Positions 846 through 25,043 of a stretch of 33,588 nt of DNA are shown in pieces. Numbering within the stretch: position 1 is the first letter of the stretch; every line of letters begins with the position of its first letter. The notes beneath the pieces were generated by a model. The model was not told where the DNA came from. It saw only the letters and a list, made by a program, of their open reading frames with translations, and ran no database searches. The stretch lies in assembly GCA_018064845.1 (NCBI GenBank), contig JAGHUK010000026.1, forward strand, positions 1-33,588. Direction: 5' to 3'. This DNA is from Candidatus Hennigella equi (GTDB lineage: Bacteria; Bacillota_I; Bacilli_A; Mycoplasmatales; Mycoplasmoidaceae). A program made the position numbers and the translations under genes.

Positions 846-1439
846 TTATTTAACGATATGACCCATTACGGTGCCAGAGCAGTTAGCAGCATTTGATTCA
901 TCTGTATCAATGTGCATTGCTAGTTTGTATGTTGGTTTAACTCTAACTACTGTGTCATCAAAGATTAACTTACGATCTTTAGTGTTCACTTCTACTTTTA
1001 CAATGTCACCATTGTTAACACCTAATTCTTGTGCATCTTCTGGTGTCATATGTACGTGTCTTTTAGCAACAATTAAACCTTCTTTAAGTTCTACTTTACC
1101 AGCAGGACCAACAATTGTAATTGGAGCAGAACCTTCAATGTGTCCTGATTCTCTAATAACAACAGGAACTTTTAATCCTCTTGCATCAGTTGCAGATACT
1201 TCAACTTGGTTGTGATCTCTAACTGGGCCAAGGATTGAAACACCTTTTAACATAGTGTTTTGTCCAGTTTTAGGATTAACAGGACCTACTAGGTCAACTT
1301 TTGTACCACTTAAAAATTCTCCTGGTTGTAATAATGGTTTCTTAACTTCTAATTTAAAACCAGCACCACAAAGAACTTCCAATGTTTCTTGTGTAACATG
1401 TACGTGTCTAGCACTAGTTTCAACAATAAATTCTTTCAT
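846..1439 (-). CDS. pduL: PduL-type phosphate acyltransferase (phosphotransacetylase/phosphotransacylase)
   Basis: The 197-residue protein matches the PduL family, which interconverts acyl-CoA plus phosphate with acyl-phosphate plus CoA and is unrelated in fold to classical Pta. The two characteristic His-rich strands are visible: SARHVHVT (H12, H14) and AKRHVHMTPEDA (H128, H130). A third His lies in KLAMHIDTDESNAA (H176). These fit the metal-binding histidines known in PduL. GPVRDHNQVEVSATDA (residues 71-86) is the conserved region with the Arg proposed to bind phosphate. There is no N-terminal encapsulation peptide, so it is a free cytosolic enzyme, probably feeding an acetate kinase for ATP synthesis. 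The start is fixed by AGGAGAG (1450-1444) just upstream. It is divergent from coaD, a CoA biosynthesis gene. Confidence 0.88.
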   Translation of the reverse strand: MKEFIVETSARHVHVTQETLEVLCGAGFKLEVKKPLLQPGEFLSGTKVDLVGPVNPKTGQNTMLKGVSILGPVRDHNQVEVSATDARGLKVPVVIRESGHIEGSAPITIVGPAGKVELKEGLIVAKRHVHMTPEDAQELGVNNGDIVKVEVNTKDRKLIFDDTVVRVKPTYKLAMHIDTDESNAANCSGTVMGHIVK

Positions 1440-2781: not shown

Positions 2782-2798
2782 AAAAGGCAGAGCCTTTT
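2782..2798. terminator. bidirectional terminator between mutM and the ABC ATPase gene
   Basis: AAAAGGC (2782-2788), loop AGA, GCCTTTT (2792-2798). It lies between two convergent stop codons and has a stem symmetric enough to work in both directions, although the T run is short on both sides. Confidence 0.65.
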
Positions 2799-4227
2799 AG
2801 TGTGTTGAAGACCAATCTAATTCTTCAACCGATTTACGTTTTTTATTTTCGTAATTTTGAGCAATATAACCTGAGTTAACTTTTATTACTCTTGATGCCA
2901 AGTCTGCAAAGATTGGATTGTGTGTAACAATAATAACTGTTGTATTGTAGTTTTTATTAATATCAACAAATAGTTGAAGAATTTGTTTAGACATTTCTTC
3001 ATCTACTGCACCAGTTGGCTCGTCTCCAAAGACGATAGCTGGGTTTTTAGCCATAGATCTAGCTACAGATACACGTTGTTGTTGACCGCCAGATAATTCA
3101 TAAGGGAATTTCTTAGCATGTTCAGACATACCAACAGTTTTTAATAGATCATCAATATTTAATCTTTTAGATTTATCTGATTGTAAGTTTCAACCAATCT
3201 CTACATTTTCTCTAACATTAAGGTTTGGTAACAAACCATATTGTTGGAAGATGTAACCAATGTTATCTTTTCTAAATTGAGTTAATTGGTTGTCTGTCAT
3301 CTTGATAAGGTTATTACTATTTACAATGGTTTTACCATATGTGGCTTTGTCCATACCAGACATAATGTTTAGTAATGTTGTTTTTCCAGAACCAGATGGA
3401 CCAAGAATAACGACAAATTCACCTTGCTTAATTTTTAGATCAAAACCCTTTAATACTTTTGTTGCCATTCATTTGTTGTAATAGTATTTTGTTAAGTTTT
3501 CAAAATCAATTACATATTCAGAGTGAACTGCAGGAACAAAATTTTTATTTGTCTTATGAGACAATTGGTCAAATCTTTTGATAAGTTTAGCATATTGCAT
3601 TGATCTAAATGTTTCATCTAAACTAGATTTTCTATCTTTGCAAGCAGTAATTTTCTTTTCTAGAATAGCGGCTTGTTTAACTCAATAGTCTTCAGGTTTT
3701 TTCTTATCACTAAAATTAAACTTACCTTTAATGATTTGGTTAACAACTTCTAATTCGAATTCAAATCTTCTCAAGTTTGAATTATTTTGAGCTAAGGTTT
3801 TTAGTCTATTTGCAGGGAAGTAATTATCTTTAAACTCCTTATTTTCATAGGCTGAAACAATTGCATATAGTTCATCTGCTGTCATTTTGCTTCTTTTACC
3901 ACTTGCACAATTATGATCATATAAAAGAAGGTTAATGTATTTAGATAGCTTTGATTTTAAAATCAATATATTATTTTCTGCTTCAGCTAATTTTTTACTT
4001 GCAATTTTTTTGTTAGAGTATCTTTCTAGATTAGTTATAGAAGGAATAGCATTAAAAGTTTTCTTTGCGCTAGTTAGTTGAGCAAAAGCATCGCGATAAA
4101 TATTAAGATAATGAGATAAATGTTCAACATTTTTCATCATTATTCTTTTCTTTTTACCGTTTGGTATATTGTTTAAGTTTTTTAATTCATTTACTGATGT
4201 AAATACTTTTTTTCCACTTTTATTCAT
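2797..4227 (-). CDS. ABC transporter ATPase with long N-terminal extension (MacB/LolD-like NBD)
   Basis: With UGA=Trp (for example VEIGWNLQ and EDYWVKQ) this is a single 476-residue protein. Residues about 240-460 form a complete ABC nucleotide-binding domain of the MacB/LolD/FtsE type: Walker A GPSGSGKT (276-283), signature LSGGQQQR (378-385), Walker B AIVFGDEP (E403) and switch His436 in VTHNP. Residues 1-240 are an extra, charged, probably helical region with no motif I recognise, joined by VIDFENLTKYYYNKW. The gene follows the giant permease with its AGGAG site overlapping the permease stop, so they form one operon and surely one transporter. The family (MG467/MG468-like pairs of M. genitalium) has no firmly known substrate. 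The NBD should be active. Confidence 0.9.
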
Positions 4228-4233
4228 AATGCT

Positions 4234-4238
4234 CTCCT
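4234..4238 (-). promoter_or_regulatory. Shine-Dalgarno of the ABC ATPase, inside the permease stop
   Basis: Minus-strand AGGAG uses the last two bases of the permease TAG stop and lies 6 nt before the ATPase ATG, coupling translation of the two subunits. Confidence 0.65.
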
Positions 4239-7200
4239 ATTTTATTTGATCAACTAATCTATTTCTCTTCAATGATACAAATCCAATTGCATAAGTACCA
4301 ATTAGGATTATTCCTATACCGCCCATAGCGGCCACATAGTATCACCATTTTTGGGTTACATCAACCAAGATGTTAGCTGTGTTGAAGATAATTGTTTGGT
4401 AACCTAGCGTTAACCCAAATGATAATGGTATAGCCAACATTAGACCAATGAAGATTGTTGGGATGAATAGTGCTAAGATAGACATTAAATTCTTAGCGTC
4501 AGAATATCCTAATGCTTTTAACATTGCTGCCATTCGTTTAGAGTCTGAAATAATTAAGTTAGAAATGATGGCCACAATAATTATTGTGATTGGAATAATA
4601 ATTGCCATAATTGATGTTTCAGCTAAATCAAATGTTGAGATTAAATTTGAATAGATTAAGTCGCTTGCTGCAACATCCATCGCACCACGCATGGCAGTAA
4701 TCATTGTTGTGTCACCATAAACACTAGTTATTGCAGCAATGAAATCTTCAATAATACTTGCATACTTTGTTGGAGAAATTCTTCCACTAATCCTATCAGC
4801 ATTAGCTTCATAATATTTATGATCATCAATTCCTGTCATTAAGTTAGCTATTGATAAGTTATTACCAAATGCTAGTAACTCAGCAAATTTGTTAACCGAA
4901 CCACTAGATTGGTATACAGATGTTCCTGGATACATTCCTGTATATGAATACAATGACAAACCATTAGTAATAGGCTTGCCTTCTTTGTTTTGTGTATACA
5001 CACCATTGAAACCAATTGGTACTTTTATATCAAACCTAGATAATTTAGCAGTTGATAATGATTCATCAATAATAGGATCAACTATAGTTGAACCATTAGT
5101 GAATGTGTATATTGAGATGTTGTTTGGATTATCTGAACCAATACCTGACAAATCTGCTAAATGCGGTCTTTTTTCTGATCAATCAGAGAATGTGTAATTT
5201 CCAAAGACATCTACCTCTGGCACAGACCACATCATGTATTTGTGAGTTTTATTTCATGAAACACCATTAGGTAGTCCTAAAATGTTATTTGCACGTTGTT
5301 GAGTTGTATAGAATGCCTCGTCATTTGTACCTTGAGAAACACCAACAACCACGAATTGATAATTATTATCATATGTTTTTTCTTTATGTAATTGTTGCTC
5401 AAAACGATCAACAGTGTTAGAAACATTTATACACATCTTATCTCCAACCTTTAGGTTGTATTTGTGTGCCGCATAAGAGTTAACGATTAGAGGGTGTAAA
5501 TTTTCATCAACATTATATTTGTTAATATAGTTTTGATCAAACAATCAATTATTAAGATTATTACCCTTTTTATCAGTTAACTTAATATATTGAGAGTCTT
5601 GAACGATACCTTCAATCTTAATTTCGTGAGATGCATCAAAACTATGATTGTTTGATAAATTAACTATATTTCCAGAAATATAAGTATATGTTTCATCTTT
5701 TTTATCACCATCTTTTAGGTTTCAATTTAAAGGAAGGTTACCATAAGCGATAGGGTATTCCATTTCAATCATTTCTTGGTTTGAATAAATGGTTTTTAAT
5801 AAATTAATGAAATCAGAATTGAATGCCATTAATAGATATCCAACAACTGACATATCTGTTTTTAAAGTATATGTATCTGATTCTTTATCATAATTAAAGA
5901 ATGCGGAATATTGAGGATATTCATGTCCTGCCTTATTAATAATTTTGTTGTAACTATCAGCAGCTATATTACGAGAGTTGGCAGGCATTAATGCTAGCGC
6001 TATTTCTCATGGGTTCGATGAAGCTACGCCAGGTAAACCAATGTTGTAGTCAAGAGTTAATCTTGTACAAAGTTTATTTTGTAAATAAAGTAAGTCTTGA
6101 TTTTGTCCAGTTGAGTCAGACAAATTAGGAATCATTAAGTTACCATAGTGACCAATTGCATCTGCATAAGATGGTTCACCATATAAAGCCATTAATGGTC
6201 CAGTAATAAAGTTTCTTGAATATGGTTTAGTAAGTTCACGATAGAAATCAACACCTTGTGTTGTGTGTCAATCTGGAGAACCCTCAACGTTAGTGTTTCA
6301 TAACACATTAAACATATATTGTGTTGGATCGCTTCAACCAAATCCGGTGTTTGTTCTGTCTTCTTGTTTTTTTGAATAATCGTAAACAGAATAAACAGAA
6401 CCACTAGAAGTTGGTGTTGTTAATTCTAGATTAAAGCTATAGTCAAATTGACTAGAGTTAGTAACTCTAGATGAATTTAGTTTATCAAATGTTGTAAAAG
6501 CAAAGACAAGTGATGACATTGTCAAGCACGTCATTGCGGCTAACATTATTAATCTACTTATAGAGTTAAATGCTAATGCAACTCTAAATCTTGTTAGAAC
6601 ACTAAAGTGTTTAAATGGTTTTTTAGCTATTCTACTAAAACTATTTGTTTTAAATTCAGATCCAGCCTTCATTAGTTCTACAGAATTAACACGTAGAACT
6701 AATAGCGTAGTAACAAAACAAATAATACTAAAGATAATAAATGGAACAAAGATACATGATAAGAATGATATCCAGTTGAATTTAATTAATGGTGTCGGCA
6801 GCATTCAGTAATTACTGAACAACGATAGTGCAGCTGCTTGTAAACCTAAACCAGTTAAATAAGCTGCTATACCACCAATTAATGCAGGAACTAAAGCAAA
6901 AGGTAATAAAGAAAGTCCAATCTTTCATTTTTTAATACCATTGGCTCTCATAATACCAATATTTACTCTGTTATTTTCCACATAACGTTTAATAATAACA
7001 AAACATATTACTAAACACAAGATTCCAATAAATGAACATAAGATTACTGAAACTATTTCAACAACCTTAACTAGGCCTGGTAAATATGCAACTCTAAAAC
7101 CCGAACAGTTTAATAAGTTGCTAGTGTCATTAGCAAAATAAGCTGATTTAACATTATCCGGGAAAATCATAGCTTGTTGTGCTCATGTATTAATTTCATT

Positions 7201-9198
7201 AATAATGGCTTGCCGTCTAATGCTATTAACACTAGGTTTAAATCTAGCAACTAGGTAATCTTCAACTGTTGAGTTAACAAATGCTAACTTAATTGAGTTA
7301 TAACCACTATCGTTTGTATAAACTAAACATTCAGTTTTAGTATTTGGTGTTGGTCTTGATATATCAACAACAGGATACATGAAGTCTGGGGTTAAACCGC
7401 AACCTCAAATAATTTCGTTGTAACCACCACAATTTGAAATAAATTGTTTACCAATACCATTTCATTGTCCTGGTTTTGTTCCTCTTTCAATTACAATTGG
7501 ATCAGCATATGGAATGTCATAAGACATTTCGGTTCATGTGCTTTTAGTTGAAGGATCCACTCAGAAAGAGAATTGATTTTGGTTTAAGCTATTAAATCAT
7601 TCAACAGCTTCACTTTGGTCAATTTCTCCGCTAGGGTATCTATCATAAACAGCAAAATATCATTCTCTAAATGGTTTAAAACCATTTAGCATTGATGGAT
7701 CGATAACTCTTTTGCCGTTTTTTTCCATATGTTGTGGATTAACAATAGCAAATTTAGAAGTTCAGTTAGAAATAGTACAAGTTTGTGGAGTACCAGTAGC
7801 TTCTACTCAACTATACACAACATTACCGTTCGCACTAATAGTTACTGATTCTGCAGCACCTAAATATCAATTTGATAGGTAATATTCATAATACTCAGGA
7901 ATAGTGCTTGGAGGTAAAAGAGGAGTCATTAAGCTGTGATAATATTGAGTTGGGTTTAAATCAACAGCAGCTAATGCTTTTAATGTGTTATCTAAAGCAT
8001 CTGTTGATCGATCAGCAGCATACATTCTCTTAAATCTAATTTGTAAAATTTGTGAATAAGCAAATTGAGCTTCTTTAGCATCGTCGCCGTCTCAACTCTT
8101 GATTTCATCAAGAGAATATAGAGGGAATGTTGCAACATCATTAAAATCAGTAGGGATGGTAATAATTGGTCCCACAGCAGGTTCAAGTGTTGAGCCCGGT
8201 TCTAAAACATTACCATCTGTATCATAAATAGTAACTTCAGAATTGTATGGCGCTCAATCATCTACAGAGAATAATTGGTTTCCCCTTCTTCCATAGCTAT
8301 CGCTGAATAAAACCATTTTATCGATTGTATCTTCAGGATTAGAATCAATAATTTTGTAGAAGATATTATCTTTAGTTGCTGTAACGTTGATAGATTTGAA
8401 AAATCTATGTTCAACTTCATCAGCATATTTCTTATCTAAGTGTAACGCTAATGGAGTGTCAGTTGTAGTCATTACTGAATATATGTTTTGAGTTTGAGAG
8501 CTTAAGAAAGATAAACAATCTTGGTAGTCATCAGCAAAAATATTATTTTCTGCTAATGATTCCATTTGTTCGTCTGTAGGTTCTGTTCCAGCATTTCATG
8601 AGTCTAAAATGCTTTGTAAATCTGTTACATATGTTGGAACAACATCATATTGAGCAACAATTTTAATGTAGAAATCAACTAGTCTACTATCACTCTTTTG
8701 CTCTGCAAAAGAAGCATATAGACCAGTTGATGTTTTAGAGTCTAATTTTAAATGATAAGTTCTAGAGAATTTATTATCTGATAATTTTTGTTGTTCAGGA
8801 ATTGCATAGTATGCCTTAACAGAAGTTTCACCTTCTCTAATTTCTGGTAAACCTTTTACGTGATATAAATCATTTGTTGTTAGCAATTCAGATAATGATG
8901 GGTCACGAAGTGAATTATAAACAGTATATACGGGATCAGCATCATTTGTATCATAGTAAGAAAAACCTTTTGTATAAGGTGCATAGCTAGCCGTACCAAC
9001 TTCATATAATTCAGAAGCAGTGAAATCGTGAAGTCTACCTCTTTGTGCCAAAGACGTATATTCATTTTTGATATTAGTTGTTGTGTTAGACATAACACAG
9101 AAGACACCTAAACCAAAAAATAACAAAAAGATTAAGCCAATAATGGAAATCTTATTATTTTTGAATGATCTAATAACGTTTTTGACTAGATTCTTCAT
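4237..9198 (-). CDS. giant FtsX/MacB-type ABC transporter permease, 1653 aa
   Basis: I checked the reading frame across the window and it is open over 4962 nt with UGA=Trp. Hydrophobicity suggests eight transmembrane helices in a duplicated FtsX layout: TM1 about 17-37, TM2 712-738, TM3 762-788, TM4 809-835, TM5 882-902, TM6 1529-1550, TM7 1571-1597 and TM8 1618-1643. Two very large outside domains (about 670 and 620 residues) follow TM1 and TM5. After TM2 and TM6 lie the cytoplasmic coupling elements NIGIMRANGIKKWKIG and RMAAMLKALGYSDAK, typical of FtsX permeases (the 'LKALG' motif). The product should pair with the downstream ATPase. By analogy with MacB/LolCE it would move or extract lipoproteins, peptides or lipids at the outer face rather than import nutrients; the substrate is unknown. 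No strong Shine-Dalgarno precedes the ATG. Confidence 0.88.
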
Positions 9199-9250: not shown

Positions 9251-9279
9251 TTAAAGAATTGAATATATATATATATAAT
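9251..9279 (+). promoter_or_regulatory. promoter of the PAP2 gene pair, with an AT repeat in the spacer
   Basis: -35-like TTAAAG (9251-9256), 17-nt spacer, perfect -10 TATAAT (9274-9279). The predicted start of transcription is at or next to the ATG at 9286, giving a leaderless mRNA. The spacer carries seven AT dinucleotides, partly overlapping the -10 box. Confidence 0.6.
9263..9277. repeat. (AT)7 dinucleotide tract
   Basis: Seven AT units plus one A lie between the -35-like and -10 hexamers of the PAP2 promoter. Slippage by one unit would change the spacer by 2 bp. Confidence 0.75.
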
Positions 9280-9285
9280 TTGACA

Positions 9286-10095
9286 ATGAAGAGATTTTTT
9301 CAATTTATTTGAACACAAATAAAGCGTGTTCCTTGATATGGATGGTTAGCCGGGATTGCTTGTATTGGTATTTCTGCCGGATTGTATAACTTGGCCAAAC
9401 CAATTATAACAGCTTGATCACACAGTTGAAGAGTAGAACCAATTATTGTTGGACTTGACACAAAGATACCATTAGTACCATACTTTTTTGTTGAAATATA
9501 TTTTTGTTATTTTGCATTAGCATTTTTTGGTCCTGTTGTTTGTTCTGTCACGCAAAAAGAACATTTCTTAACGACAGTCATTTCTATATTGGTATGTGAA
9601 ATAATTGTATTTTTATTATGATCGTGTTGTCCTTCATATATGGATCGAAATCATGTTGCTGGTGTGCCAATAGATGGATACGGTAGTTTGATAGAAGCTG
9701 TTAAAGATAAAAAAGGTTTATCATATTTTTTGATGAAAGTTTTACTTCGTACTGATGGTGGAGCTGATAACTACAATTTGTTCCCTTCATTCCATTGCGG
9801 GCTAATAACTTTTTGTTATTTAGGAGTTATGAATAGAAAAGAACTAAAAATAGGGTCAAGAATTTTCTGATTAGTAATGGCTATATTAGTTTGTTTGTCA
9901 ACAAACTTTACTAAACAACATTATTTCTTCGATTTAGTTACTGGTGTTTTATTATCAGTACTTGTCTTTGGTATCTTCAAATGAATTAACCCAGGAAAAC
10001 ATATTTTAAAGAAATGTCCCAACTTTTTAATTATTGAAAAGTTAAATTGAACACACGAAAAAATAACTAAAAAATCATTTAAGTCAGGTAAATAG
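9286..10095 (+). CDS. PAP2-superfamily membrane phosphatase/phosphotransferase, paralogue A
   Basis: A 269-residue integral membrane protein (UGA=Trp) with about six hydrophobic helices. It carries the PAP2 C2 and C3 motifs in the variant seen in inositol-phosphotransferase-like members: PSFHCG (H170) and TNFTKQHYFFD (H212, D216), in place of PSGH and SRxxxxxHxxxD. These residues form the phospho-His intermediate and relay in the superfamily. Likely substrates are lipid phosphates, or a phospholipid headgroup in a transfer reaction, at the membrane outer face; which one cannot be told. The ATG lies 6 nt after a TATAAT box with no Shine-Dalgarno. The paralogue at 10097 starts one base after the TAG stop. 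Confidence 0.8.
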
Positions 10096-10096
10096 T

Positions 10097-10900
10097 ATGA
10101 TTGAACAAAAAGTAAAGAAAACGCGCAACCCTTTTAAACTCATTCCATGATACGGATGAGTTGGAGCAGTAATTTTTATTGTTTTTCAAATAGGTTTATA
10201 TAAATTGGGCGGATTCTTATCTGAGAAATTAGTATCACCACACTGAAGTGTTTGCCCTAAAATTCCAGTGATTGATGATGCAATACCATATTGCCCATAT
10301 TTCTTTATTCAAATTTATTTCTTAGCATATGCTTTTTGATTCATAGCACCGCTATGAATATCAACTGGTAAGAAAGAAAATTTCATAAACTTTATGATTT
10401 ATGGAACAATTGCTTCGTTTATTGGTTTTATTTGATTTGTTTTAATGCCAAGCGTAATGAATAGAACTGATCATGAGGTTATTATTAACAACTTAGTTGT
10501 TCCTGCTGAAAACCTAATAGAAAAAGCGAAGTCAATCAAAACTCCATTCACAAGATTTTTAGTTCAAGCGATCATTGCTATGGATACAGGAGATTTAGGA
10601 TGAAACCTTTGCCCATCATACCATTGTATGGCTTCAGCGCTATGTGCTTTTGGTGTAATGAGAATTAAACAACACCATTTAGGAACTAGAATTGGTTTTG
10701 AAGTAATGGCCGTATTGGTGTTCTTATCTACTGTTTTTGTAAAACAACACTACTTTGCAGACATATTAGGAGGTATTGGTGTGGCAGCAATCCCATACCT
10801 ATTAACTAGATTTGTTTGACATCCAGGTGAAAAAATAATGTTAAATAACCCACAATTCCTACAAATAAAGCGATTAAAGAAAAGTAATAAAAAAAAGTAG
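10097..10900 (+). CDS. PAP2-superfamily membrane phosphatase/phosphotransferase, paralogue B
   Basis: A 267-residue protein, clearly a tandem duplicate of the preceding gene: both have PWYGW near residue 18, PYFF about residue 80, a PS(F/Y)HC motif (here P173-S-Y-H176-C) and VKQHYFAD (H218, D222). About six transmembrane helices are predicted. The two differ strongly outside the motifs, so the duplication is old and both copies have been kept, which suggests different substrates. The start is one base after the upstream TAG, with no clear ribosome site of its own, so translation is probably coupled. It ends at a bidirectional hairpin shared with aspS. Confidence 0.8.
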
Positions 10901-14015: not shown

Positions 14016-17000
14016 ATGGAAAATATCAACCAAAATAATAAAAAATTTGGTTCTAAAAAATCTAAATCATCAATCTTATCGATTGGTTTTTCTGCTATTC
14101 TAGCAGCTGGTGCTTTAGCTGGTTCTGGTGTAGGCATTTGAAACATCGCTAAAAACTATACTGATAGTGCTGAATTTACTAAAACTGTCAGCGGAAGAAT
14201 CAAAATTGATCCAGCAGCTTTATTAGATGACGATCAAAAGAAATTGCAAACTAAACAAGAAGCTGAAGATATCGTTAAAGATTGTGCCGACAAATTATCT
14301 AGATGATTAAAGGACTCTGGTCAAAAATCATATGACGTGTCATATGAAGTTTATGACAAAGGCGAAGATGATAACCAATATTTTGGTTATTTAAGTGCAA
14401 ACTTTGAAGTAAGTAAAATTAATAAAAAACATATTACTTCAGAAGACGACAAAGAAAAGAAGATTGATAATGATCCATATTTATCTTTCTTTGATTCAAA
14501 AGCATTCAATTCTAATGAAAAAACGATAGTATATCGTTGATATATTGAAAACCCAGGTGAAGAAATTGTTCGTCCTAAATATTCAATTATTCCATTTAGA
14601 CAATTATTTAGTATTCCTAAAAAAGTTGATCCAAAGGATCCTAAAGTAAAACCATTAGTTGATAGTGATGGTAATAATGGTGTTCTATTTACAATAAATG
14701 ATCAACCAAAATTAAAGGCAATCTTTGAAGATTTAGCTAAAGCTAAACAAGCAAAAGAACAAAAAGATCCTGAACCAAGTAATGATGATATCAAAACTTA
14801 TTGTCAACCAAGATTATATGTAGTTAATAACTTACAAGGTTTGTGTGATGAAGCTAACTATCATATTGCTAACTGAATGGCACATGACCGTGGCGAAGAT
14901 TTAGAATATGATGATATCTATAAAGATTCTGATTATGCAAACTTTGCTAATTCATATTACAAGAATGATATTGATGGTAGCGAAAGAAAAACTGATGATG
15001 CTAGACAACGAGCATTTAAATTAGACTCAGCTATATCACATGACGATGAGCAAGTAGAACTTGAAAATATTGATTTGTTCAATTATATTGATCAAGCTAC
15101 TCCTGGTACAAACGCTATCAGCTTTACAAACAAGTATGTTGATAAGATTGTAACTATTGATGATTTTGACAAAATTATTCCAAAGAAGATTACAGACGAC
15201 TATAAAAACGATGTTAATTTTGATAACTGAGAAAGCTGAGAAATTAACTCAATAACATATTTGTGATACCAAACAGCATCAAAGAATGATGCGACTACTT
15301 ATTTGAATAACCAAATAAAATATGGTTTTGATAAAGCAACCATTGTTAATTTTGATTTTAGCGATATTACTGGAAAAGGTGTTGAAGCAGCAAAAAAAGT
15401 TTTAGATAAATTCCAAGGCAAAGAACTTAAGAAAACAGATATTGCTCCAACATTTACTGAAACTATTTTTGGTGGAAGTCATTTAGTTGGAATTTTAAGT
15501 TTAGGATTCTTGATTTTCCTAGTTACCCTTTTAATACTCTTAGCTGTACTTTATAGAACAACTGGTGTTATGAGTTGAATCTGCATGATATTTGCACTAT
15601 CTATGACTGCATTAATTGCAACTATCGGTTCAACTGCTATTAGCATGTCATTATTATTTGGATTATTTACACTAGCTGTTATTGGGTTCATGGCTTCATT
15701 AACAATTTGTGGTCGTATGAAACGAAGACTTAGATCTCATGAAGATACGCAAGTAATGATTAGTAAAACATTTAAAAAATCATTATTGCCTATGGCAGAC
15801 ATAAGTGTCATCACATTAATCTTTGGTGTTTGTTTTATTTACATCGCTCCAATTAGTTTAAACTCTTTAGGACTAGTATTAACAATAGGCGCTTTCTTAA
15901 CATTTATAAGTGTTTACTTATTTAATGGCTTATTACACATTCTATTCTTTAACAATAAAGCAATGATTGGTAAGTACCAATTCTTCGGTAAGCCAAGTAA
16001 TAAGGCTAACGAAATGTTAGCTCAAAGCAACAATGCCGTACCAGTAAGTATGGATGCTACAAGACTTGAGCTTCCTTACTTTAGTACTATGAGCAAAAAG
16101 AAAATTGATGCTACTGGTAAAAGAGCATTAATTGCCTTATGTGTTGTTGCAGTATTATTAATTGCCGGAATTATTGTCTTTAGTGTTCTTGGATTTACAA
16201 GCGCAAGTATTTTCCATACAACAAACTGTATTATGGTTAGATATGAAGGAGATTTAGTTCCATTACTACCAGACTTTAGTTATGTTTCAATTAAACATGA
16301 TACATTATCTAATTGATGATATATTTATACAAATGCTGGCAATACAACCCAAATAGCTCAAACAATTGCAGAAACATTAAAAGTTGATTTGGGCATTGAT
16401 GTTTTGGCACAAGGAATTTTAGGATCAACAAACCAAGATATTTTAAATTTTGCTTTAATTTCTATTTTAGTTGCTACATTATGTTCTGCAGTTTATGCAG
16501 CATTAAGATACAACTGAATTGCGTTCATACCTATGGTATTAGGTGCATTTGCTGTGCCTCTATTGATTCTAGGTATTGCATCAATTTGCCAAGTTAAATT
16601 TGATCAATTTGTTGTAACCGGATTTGTCTTTGTCACAGCAATTAATTCTATTTTCAGCATGACATTAATTGGAAGTATTAATGAAGCTTGAAGCAGAAAA
16701 GATGCTTACACAAATAGCGAATTTAAATATATTGTTAATGTTGCTTTAAGCAATGATTGAACATTTATTTGAAATACTGCAGTAGCATACTTGCTATTCA
16801 TTCTTTTATTTGGATTAACAGCACCAATAGCTGTAAGTACGGTTTCAACTATTGTATTATTAGTTATCGCTTGTATCATCACAATTATAATTACACCACT
16901 TACAACATCATTTGTTCTTTACCAATTCATGAAAGTTAGAAATAGTGTTTTGAATAGAATCGTTGAAAGAAATAAGAACAAAGTCATCATTAATTATGAT

Positions 17001-17087
17001 GATATTGATGAACAAGGAATTGAAGGTATTAACCAATTCACAAAGAAAATTCCAGTTTCAAAACCACAAAATCAACAAGGAGAATAA
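14016..17087 (+). CDS. secDF: SecDF-like protein-export membrane protein, degenerate RND type
   Basis: A 1023-residue protein with the 12-helix SecDF plan: TM1 about 21-46, a large outside domain 47-490, five helices about 492-640, TM7 about 703-726, a short outside domain about 727-815, then five helices to about 985. SecDF pulls translocated proteins out of the Sec channel using the proton gradient. ISKTFKKSLLPMADISVITLIF (about 580) aligns with the SecD segment GFKRAFSTILDANVTTLI. However, the helix that carries the conserved VDANV Asp reads AVIGFMASLTICGRMKR (554-570), with no acidic residue. The first outside domain is large for SecD and very acidic. It is translationally close to apt (2 nt), an order I recall from M. 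genitalium MG277-MG276. Fold assignment is good; proton coupling is doubtful. Confidence 0.75.
17077..17082 (+). promoter_or_regulatory. Shine-Dalgarno deciding the GTG start of apt
   Basis: AAGGAG, 7 nt before GTG 17090. No ATG lies at a suitable distance; the first in-frame ATG (17123) is 12 codons in and would remove the start of the family fold. Confidence 0.7.
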
Positions 17088-24925: not shown

Positions 24926-24931
24926 TATAAT
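24926..24931 (+). promoter_or_regulatory. -10 box of the SRP RNA gene
   Basis: A perfect TATAAT preceded by TG, starting 3 nt after the dnaG stop. It places the transcription start at about 24937, exactly the 5' end of the RNA stem. Confidence 0.7.
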
Positions 24932-24936
24932 TGTTA

Positions 24937-25016
24937 AGCATCACAACGTGTGGTACGAACCGTGTTAGGGTAGAAATACAGCAGCACTAAGTTAAAGCAC
25001 GTGTGTGGTGCTTTTT
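24937..25016 (+). ncRNA. ffs: signal recognition particle RNA (4.5S/scRNA, short bacterial type)
   Basis: About 80 nt folding into one hairpin. The outer stem pairs AGCATCACA (24937-24945) with TGTGGTGCT (25004-25012), one G-U pair, extended by ACGTG with CACGT. The apical part shows the Ffh-binding core: GTGTTAGG (24962-24969), helix GTA/TAC capped by a GAAA tetraloop (24973-24976), and AGCAGCAC (24980-24987), matching the conserved UCAGG...AGCAGC asymmetric loop. The T run at 25012-25017 makes the outer stem its own terminator. There is no Alu domain, unlike B. subtilis scRNA. It works with Ffh to target membrane proteins to the Sec machinery. Confidence 0.92.
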
Positions 25017-25023
25017 TGTTTGT

Positions 25024-25043
25024 CTTACACAACTATGTGTAAG
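25024..25043. other. hairpin between the SRP RNA gene and recR
   Basis: CTTACACA (25024-25031), loop ACTA, TGTGTAAG (25036-25043). There is no good T run on either side, so it is a weak terminator candidate for the convergent ybaB-recR transcript or a backup for SRP RNA. The rest of 25044-25105 is A/T-rich with nothing recognisable. Confidence 0.35.

Follow-up and report, generated by a model that had tools for sequence, protein, structure and literature searches.

Type VII ATP-binding cassette (ABC) machines are described as coupling ATP to movement outside the membrane and not to passage through it (PMC5985334, PMC12646458). The MacB family is known to include fused permeases whose cassette is a separate protein (PMC5985334). 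In the YbbAP-TesA system of E. coli, a single permease chain carries both FtsX halves and two Porter/Sabre domains, and the ATPase is a separate protein (PMC12646458). Here, we describe a permease-ATPase gene pair of similar arrangement from Candidatus Hennigella equi, a gut bacterium without a cell wall (Mycoplasmoidaceae; assembly GCA_018064845.1, contig JAGHUK010000026.1, positions 1 to 33,588; the whole stretch of 33,588 nucleotides is called the window). The pair is a new variant within an already known family, broadly retained and little characterised, that also occurs in other mycoplasmas. We propose, with a probability of about 0.5, that it forms a mechanotransmission machine of Type VII that works at the outer leaflet of the membrane, probably on lipids or lipoproteins.

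Both genes lie on the minus strand and were called under genetic code 4, in which TGA encodes tryptophan; 24 in-frame TGA codons occur in the permease gene and three in the ATPase gene. The permease gene (4237..9198) encodes 1653 residues and was identified by its open reading frame, the FtsX profile PF02687 and hydropathy. The ATPase gene (2797..4227; 476 residues), identified by its open reading frame, profile and alignment to known cassettes, follows directly downstream after a spacer of 9 bases. PF02687 matches two stretches of the permease (E 2.4e-16, 60.3 bits against a cut-off of 25.5). Hydropathy predicts eight transmembrane (TM) segments in a 1+3, 1+3 pattern and places loops of 662 and 621 residues outside the membrane, between the first and second TM segments of the respective halves. 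TM1 (residues 14-41; 9076..9159) leads into outside domain 1 (residues 42-702; 7093..9075), the core of which is probably MacB-like, as judged from alignment to a compact relative and the model of that relative. TM2-TM5 with the first FtsX domain follow (residues 703-902; 6493..7092). Outside domain 2 (residues 903-1522; 4633..6492), for which the same comparison suggests a LolC/LolE-like core, precedes TM6-TM8 with the second FtsX domain (residues 1523-1653; 4240..4632). The first FtsX domain contains a conserved ANG loop (residues 752-754) and the second a conserved KxLGY loop (residues 1561-1565); the cytoplasmic-loop residues G754 and G1564 are invariant in 20/20 alignment rows. The sequence-only reading had described a giant permease with two FtsX-type halves and about 1300 residues outside the membrane, which agrees with the 1283 residues counted here; the periplasmic domain of MacB has ~200 (PMC5985334).

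The fold of the permease was predicted on the shortest relative compared, that of M. amphoriforme, using AlphaFold2 on residues 1-1200 and 42 alignment rows (predicted local distance difference test, pLDDT, 77.2; predicted template modelling score, pTM, 0.64). Within the alignment, identity between the window permease and this compact relative is 29%. The model resembles LolCDE chain 7mdy_B (VIA Z 16.9, root-mean-square deviation 7.2 Å, 337 aligned residues), MacB 5gko_A (Z 16.2, 6.2 Å, 365 residues), FtsX 8idb_D (Z 16.0) and YbbAP chain 9ge6_A (Z 13.4, 9.8 Å, 580 residues spanning both halves). These matches to LolCDE, MacB, YbbP and FtsX chains (Z 13-17) cover the membrane part and the first arm. 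The outside domains of the model match periplasmic domains: outside domain 1 matches MacB 5lj8_B (Z 9.1, 6.1 Å, 173 residues), and outside domain 2 matches LolE 5udf_D (Z 9.3, 4.7 Å, 179 residues) and LolC 5naa_B (Z 9.1, 5.8 Å, 201 residues). The outside arms are therefore predicted to be MacB/LolC-type domains and not a nutrient-binding fold, the outcome that would have spoken against the sequence-only reading; for the window protein, this holds by homology. In a search of the permease profile against Protein Data Bank (PDB) sequences, two matches were obtained at E<=1: MacB (0.11) and a Mediator subunit (0.68).

The arms of the window permease are about three times the size of the matched MacB/LolC domains, which have 197-218 residues. 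Relative to the compact permease, 243 residues are inserted in arm 1 (insertions at 78-148, 170-180, 197-227, 321-348, 363-382, 418-428 and 539-582) and 172 in arm 2 (971-1007, 1315-1391 and 1469-1482). Identity to the nearest relative is 34% in arm 1a (residues 42-449), 43% in arm 1b (450-702) and 45% in arm 2, compared with 54% in TM2-TM5 and 60% in TM6-TM8. Two conserved islands stand inside the otherwise fast-changing arms: GxGxTPDFxYP, present as GCGLTPDFMYP at residues 599-609 close to the end of outside domain 1, and SNPW at residues 1061-1064 in outside domain 2. Both motifs are candidates for a working site or an arm contact. Related permeases range from 1325 to 2784 residues, and arm 1 is the variable arm, with about 400 to 1832 residues and the maximum in the 2784-residue relative; this range omits L027 and L077, whose loops were mis-called or cut and gave smaller figures. 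Permeases of 2636-2784 residues occur in another family of the order (L053 2292-10646, L054 2395-10584, L055 2201-10393 and L052 7069-14979), and their first outside arm, of 1419-1832 residues, exceeds that of the window permease.

The ATP-binding cassette occupies residues 237-476 of the ATPase (2800..3519) and is of the MacB/LolD/BceA type according to profile, alignment and structure search. Alignments to LolD, BceA, FtsE and MacB place its start at residues 237-239. The catalytic motifs are intact: Walker A at residue 276, Q-loop at 327-328, signature at 378, Walker B at 399-404 and H-loop at 435-437. The neighbours of the cassette by sequence are BceA, MacB, LolD, YbbA and similar proteins, with BceA closest, and its identity to MacB is 33-36%. 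The cassette is 77% identical to that of the nearest relative.

The pair shows the features of Type VII systems (the MacB superfamily), as it has an FtsX domain in each half, large outside loops and a cassette of the MacB/LolD/FtsE/BceA subfamily. The Porter/Sabre-type fold of the outside domains is predicted for the compact relative (Z ~9 for each domain) and, by homology, for the window permease. Membership in LolCDE, FtsEX, MacB or BceAB proper fails on the features tested. LolCDE shares with the window the halves of four TM segments, periplasmic domains that match those of the compact relative, and a separate LolD-like ATPase; however, LolC and LolE are separate chains served by the LolA carrier, LolD lacks an N-terminal extension, and the window ATPase reaches 197.8 bits against the cut-off of 307.75 of the LolD equivalog TIGR02211. 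MacB has the Porter/Sabre-type arm fold, as seen in the compact relative, but its cassette is fused to a permease with one four-TM unit per chain. The FtsE equivalog TIGR02673 gives 182.6 bits against a cut-off of 264.85, and BceAB has ten TM segments compared with the eight predicted by hydropathy here. The nearest arrangement is that of YbbP, which differs in having ten TM segments and ~800 residues; no TesA-like neighbour was seen.

The combination of the two genes is not due to chance, since permease matches (E<=0.001; the count takes in other FtsX permeases) were found in 55/59 related genomes searched, and 35/42 named loci have the ATPase gene immediately downstream of the permease gene (33 by open reading frame and two more by tblastn). 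The relatives compared were 40 stretches from these genomes together with the 42 loci. In two of the 42 the ATPase is upstream, and in five it was not found in the sequence available, which in three of them stops no more than 453 bases from the permease. For 62 permeases, a tree built on the first FtsX region by a quick method that left 18/59 inner branches open, and rooted at the midpoint, groups the window permease with five permeases of its own genus (support 100). Seven permeases of 1783-1818 residues form a clade split from the window permease and all others (Shimodaira-Hasegawa-like approximate likelihood ratio test, SH-aLRT, 98); its 1783-residue member is presumably MG468 of M. genitalium. 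A pair of a 1331-residue permease and a 466-residue ATPase, which we take to be MG064/MG065 of the same species, falls on the side of the window. The window pair belongs to a family spread through Mycoplasmatales and, in this tree, goes with its MG064/MG065 side.

The MG064/MG065 and MPN_080 systems have a double-FtsX permease and an ATPase in the same gene order as the window pair. The arms of MG064/MG065-type permeases are smaller (434 and 526 residues), and ~229 residues precede the cassette, compared with 236 in the window. Permeases of the MG467/MG468-type paralogue are likewise double-FtsX proteins, but have a larger first arm of 766-867 residues. The MG468-type copy in an M. genitalium-like genome has ATPases of 311 and 286 residues on both flanks, and an adjacent ATPase was not found for the Malacoplasma-like copies of this type. 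The right comparison for the window pair is therefore MG064/MG065 and not MG467/MG468, which the sequence-only reading had recommended. That reading was correct in nearly every observed detail, and its interpretation was right in kind but wrong in the comparison. Its term "exporter" is not supported; the Type VII fold is described as usually working outside without moving a substrate across the membrane (PMC5985334, PMC12646458). A mechanotransmission system is supported by the fold matches of the compact relative, but "dedicated" was too strong a word, because the permeases vary from 1325 to 2784 residues, and the stretch ahead of the cassette can be nearly lacking or reach ~400 residues.

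The region before the cassette forms an N-terminal helical domain (residues 1-236; 3520..4227), delimited by AlphaFold2 prediction, charge and profile. The 240 residues originally reported are thus 236, and the extension is absent from LolD, BceA, FtsE and MacB, as had been noted. AlphaFold2 predicts the whole ATPase from 33 alignment rows with pLDDT 90.1 and pTM 0.83. The predicted helices of the extension span residues 24-60, 67-106, 117-127, 130-135, 142-166 and 179-223, with pLDDT mostly 91-98. Because the whole-chain pTM is 0.83, we infer, from this score and not from coordinates or predicted aligned errors, that the extension packs on the cassette in a defined manner. Its net charge is +23 in 236 residues, compared with +4 for the cassette, in agreement with the earlier description of the region as charged and likely helical. 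Similarly, 31/32 ATPases with long extensions, and 22/22 of those from the window's genus and the sister lineage, have an extension that is more basic than the cassette of the same protein. The extension is 40% identical to that of the nearest relative. In seven ATPase pairs, one of which (L040/L041) comes from the Mycoplasmoides-type group, the ratio of nonsynonymous to synonymous substitution rates (dN/dS) is 0.021-0.169 for the cassette and, in six of the seven, 0.047-0.32 for the extension, the seventh being saturated, which points to purifying selection on the extension; these values are rough because synonymous divergence (dS) is high, 0.4-3.0 where measurable.

A profile of the extension matches 6/6 genomes of the genus and 29/36 of the sister genus (35/42 together), which amounts to 35/95 genomes of the family; across the order, 37/320 genomes match. 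None of the family's nine remaining genera had a match. Two matches outside the family were weak (E 1.5e-4 and 9.2e-4) and covered ~50-60 residues, and were not counted as relatives. When 198 genomes from the order were searched pairwise with the 236-residue extension, only the source genome and G004 were returned; taken alone, this search suggested that the extension was unconserved, which the profile counts overturned. The outcome that the sequence-only reading had named as refuting it, a disordered and unconserved extension, is thus contradicted, as the extension is predicted to be folded and is conserved in two genera. Among the seven sister-genus genomes with no profile match, G157, G300, G302 and G306 also have no FtsX match, and the whole pair may therefore be missing from these assemblies; G135, G296 and G304 contain FtsX and have no match to the extension profile.

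Outside the two genera, the part before the cassette varies widely. It measures 8 to 401 residues in 46 distinct ATPases, a count that runs three residues into the cassette. With sequence sets assembled by hand according to lineage, hhalign relates the window extension to two sister-lineage sets (probabilities 95.5% and 86.5%) and gives no detectable relation to the Mycoplasmoides-type (M. genitalium group) set (0.4%), despite the similar length of the MG064/MG065-type extension, or to the Hg1/Hg2 set (0.5%). Fast change occurs even inside one genus: ATPases L029 (11526-13433) and L074 (11910-13817) have ~400 charged residues before the cassette, and their near relatives L026 and L079 have ~185. 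The cytoplasmic side of the permease has no length change matching the extension (TM2-TM5 align over 200/200 residues with each of five relatives). No credible relative of the extension was found by sequence in Pfam or the PDB; a designed protein, the best of six PDB profile matches at E<=1 (E 0.0032), was rejected as not credible. The Foldseek and VIA matches listed for the whole ATPase fall on the cassette, and those in a viral library are ABC and other ATPase proteins. We conclude from the prediction and the conservation that the extension is probably a real, folded and selected domain, yet a local, lineage-specific addition outside the core mechanism; no claim of a novel fold is made.

A motif, KxLNKPHK, is plain just before the cassette in most Malacoplasma-like and Mycoplasmoides-type ATPases, and also in the Hg1/Hg2 ATPases and MG468-type neighbours, and is missing in Malacoplasma-like L043. 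In the window ATPase, residues 215-225 (LIKRFDQLSHK; 3553..3585), where the last long helix ends, are a weak counterpart, and for the window's genus the resemblance is only suggestive. With a motif model trained on ten rows picked for having the motif, 22/34 tested ATPases score above random 45-mers (p<0.05) and only 12/34 above segments from inside the extensions. We did not use the motif as support.

We hypothesize that one permease chain would provide both halves of the machine, each with a TM helix, a big outside arm and three further helices. Two copies of the separate ATPase would dock below, in a 2:1 ratio as in YbbAP. ATP binding would close the cassettes, the movement would pass through the ANG and KxLGY cytoplasmic loops to the helices, and the arms would swing. 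No substrate would cross the membrane; instead, the arms would act on molecules of the outer leaflet, most likely extracting lipids or acylated lipoproteins. The large arm insertions may substitute for a separate periplasmic partner such as LolA, TesA, MacA or EnvC. The basic helical domain would form a rigid cytosolic extension packed on the cassette, and its most likely role would be to steady the two ATPases or to anchor them against the anionic inner leaflet.

Lipoproteins are possible substrates, since Lgt was found in the source genome. Work on lipids or lipoproteins of the outer leaflet is favoured because Lgt is present, no carrier was found, and the neighbouring genes lean toward membrane lipids or secreted proteins. 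LolA (PF03548) had no match in the source genome, and the two FtsX matches there both lie within the 4237-9198 permease. The claims that this is the only FtsX permease and that LolA is absent are provisional, however, because the assembly (636 kb) is 82.3% complete. The six genomes of the window's genus have exactly two FtsX matches apiece. The tasks known for FtsEX, LolCDE and MacAB are hard to place in bacteria that have neither wall nor outer membrane, so the task of the machine in such cells is a testable question. The points of interest are the work of what may be the sole Type VII machine of a wall-less cell and the purpose of the domain added to its motor. As a folded, removable motor module limited to two genera, the helical domain offers an experimental handle.

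Several observations weigh against the proposed outer-leaflet function. In addition to the incomplete assembly and the high dS mentioned above, the fold was modelled on the M. amphoriforme relative, and the arms of the window permease are covered by homology. Foldseek with the compact model ranks the LolCDE, MacB, YbbP and FtsX families on top (from E 9.8e-7) at low TM-scores, at most 0.29 by query length and 0.57 by target length, and root-mean-square deviations are 5-10 Å over most full chains. The basic charge of the extension is ordinary here, as net charge per residue is higher in two other proteins encoded in the window. An essential role of the domain is disfavoured, because extension lengths are many and those of other genera are unrelated. 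The gene secA, a potential link to secretion, is on another contig in the source genome, and most of the 59 genomes likewise have it at a great distance or on a different contig; uvrB stands beside it in one locus, and the linkage may be old synteny with no functional meaning. Finally, the identity of the substrate is something that we infer throughout.

The helical domain could also be a neutral passenger with no function. Its undetectable relation to, or near absence from, other genera, its evolution several times faster than that of the cassette, and its recovery from the source genome and one relative only in the pairwise search of 198 genomes would fit such a passenger. We consider this doubtful, as the fold is predicted with confidence, dN/dS is well below 1 in the six measurable pairs of seven, and the profile matches 35/42 genomes of the two genera. 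A broader possibility, which we regard as unlikely, is that the machine is self-contained in wall-less cells: the arms would have absorbed the function of the partner through repeated insertions, a single permease chain both swinging and handling lipids or lipoproteins of the surface, and the ATPases would repeatedly have gained differing N-terminal clutch domains. Such a clutch would tie the machine to the membrane, to the partner ATPase or to another cytosolic complex, for example the Sec motor, often encoded close by, and the helical domain of this pair of genera would be an independent gain and a previously undescribed protein domain.

Control of surface proteins in the manner of FtsEX is a further, somewhat unlikely alternative, in which the arms would switch a surface protease, nuclease or hydrolase, or aid the folding or shedding of secreted proteins. 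The fold match to FtsX is consistent with it, as is the position of secA, which in M. alvi and the Hg1/Hg2 pair is the first gene of any size to follow the ATPase, and both FtsEX and YbbAP are described as acting via an outside enzyme (PMC12646458). Arm 1 also diverges faster between species than the membrane part, a pattern compatible with its touching a surface partner that itself changes. However, no secreted enzyme or other secreted partner was identified among the recurring neighbours examined; a hydrolase family of sister-genus-type loci was dropped as a TesA-like partner because hydropathy finds no membrane or signal segment in 5/5 copies. Furthermore, the targets of FtsEX are missing in cells with no wall, and the window ATPase stays below the FtsE equivalog cut-off.

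Mycoplasmas depend on host lipids, and the arms could work inward, taking lipids or sterols from host cells or host lipoproteins into the membrane. The size of the arms, with arm 1 reaching 1832 residues in relatives, and the two PAP2-family genes divergent beside the pair are compatible with uptake. Nevertheless, the PAP2 pair is not among the listed families recurring in at least four loci, and we know of no Type VII system that imports lipids; uptake is quite unlikely in our opinion.

A machine similar to MacB or BceAB that expels macrolides or antimicrobial peptides, and thus confers efflux or resistance, is very unlikely. The observation in its favour, which at the same time speaks against action on the outer leaflet, is that overexpression of an allele of MPN_080, the M. 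pneumoniae relative, is reported to raise the minimal inhibitory concentration of erythromycin from <0.125 to 1 ug/mL (PMC13118816). The cassette is, moreover, closest in sequence to that of BceA. In the same report, the wild-type allele had no effect and the authors state that efflux was not directly demonstrated (PMC13118816). The window permease has eight TM segments and not the ten of BceAB, and its cassette is separate and not fused as in MacB. FtsX permeases of any kind are kept in 50/50 genera of strongly reduced genomes (312/320 genomes of the order), which suggests a housekeeping role. The MPN_080 paper also models an ATP pocket in the permease (PMC13118816), a model to which we give less weight, because a profile scan found no ATPase cassette domain in the permeases scanned.

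That paper, the one found to name MPN_080 or MPN_081, is the sole experimental study of a relative found in open-licence PubMed Central. Searches there combining mechanotransmission, FtsX, MacB or LolCDE with Mycoplasma or Ureaplasma returned no paper on this system among the matches listed, and those for MG_064/MG_065 returned nothing relevant by title or abstract. An MG468 homologue is listed among efflux-related genes of M. iowae (PMC13089696). Four proteins of the synthetic minimal cell are classed as FtsX-like permeases (PMC6629657). The N-terminus of MPN683 is described as expressible in soluble form, and domains of one protein as able to differ in essentiality (PMC4332154); the accessible portion of PMC4045577 contains nothing on this family.

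The gene neighbourhood was surveyed through up to 45 gene families recurring in at least four loci and the scanning of 13 neighbour proteins, and other neighbours may have been overlooked. The secA gene recurs in several lineages: it is 1.4-8.3 kb downstream in 12/42 named loci, 11 of which have it on the same strand (examples of secA are L079 14916-17777, L081 14866-17412, L064 16510-19092 and L062 10238-12811), and in 9/59 genomes (G003, G010, G011, G019, G020, G022, G028, G034 and G044) it shares the contig of the permease at a distance below 17 kb. In six named loci of the sister-genus type (L062, L066, L067, L068, L069 and L099), a group-1 glycosyltransferase gene comes right after the ATPase gene. 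Several of these loci also have a family-2 glycosyltransferase, the hydrolase mentioned above and an LPG_synthase_TM-type membrane protein before secA, as judged from one to three scanned members of each family. In the window, two adjacent PAP2_3-family genes (9259-10900, plus strand; 278 and 267 residues with TTG and ATG starts) are divergent to the permease gene and begin 60 bases from its start.

The 3' end of the ATPase gene overlaps a terminator-like hairpin (2782..2798, minus strand) found by a pattern scan only. Promoter-like sites are in no excess over chance, with 32 found and 38.2 expected. The eight genomes of the order with no FtsX match are the four sister-genus assemblies G300, G302, G306 and G157, together with G017, G026, G048 and G060. 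Among the named loci from the genus of the window are metagenome-assembled genomes bearing the name "Ureaplasma sp. RUG" and one of a goat reticulum bacterium; we take RUG to be a rumen label, and these are probably rumen organisms. Elsewhere in the window, positions 14016-17087 (plus strand) encode a 1023-residue membrane protein that has no Pfam match at E<=0.01 and that we presume, by eye, to be SecDF-like. A PduL-type phosphate propanoyltransferase (PTAC, PF06130) is encoded at 846-1439 (minus strand) of this mollicute sequence, and a bacterial small signal recognition particle RNA (RF00169, 47.5 bits) lies at 24930-25025 (plus strand).

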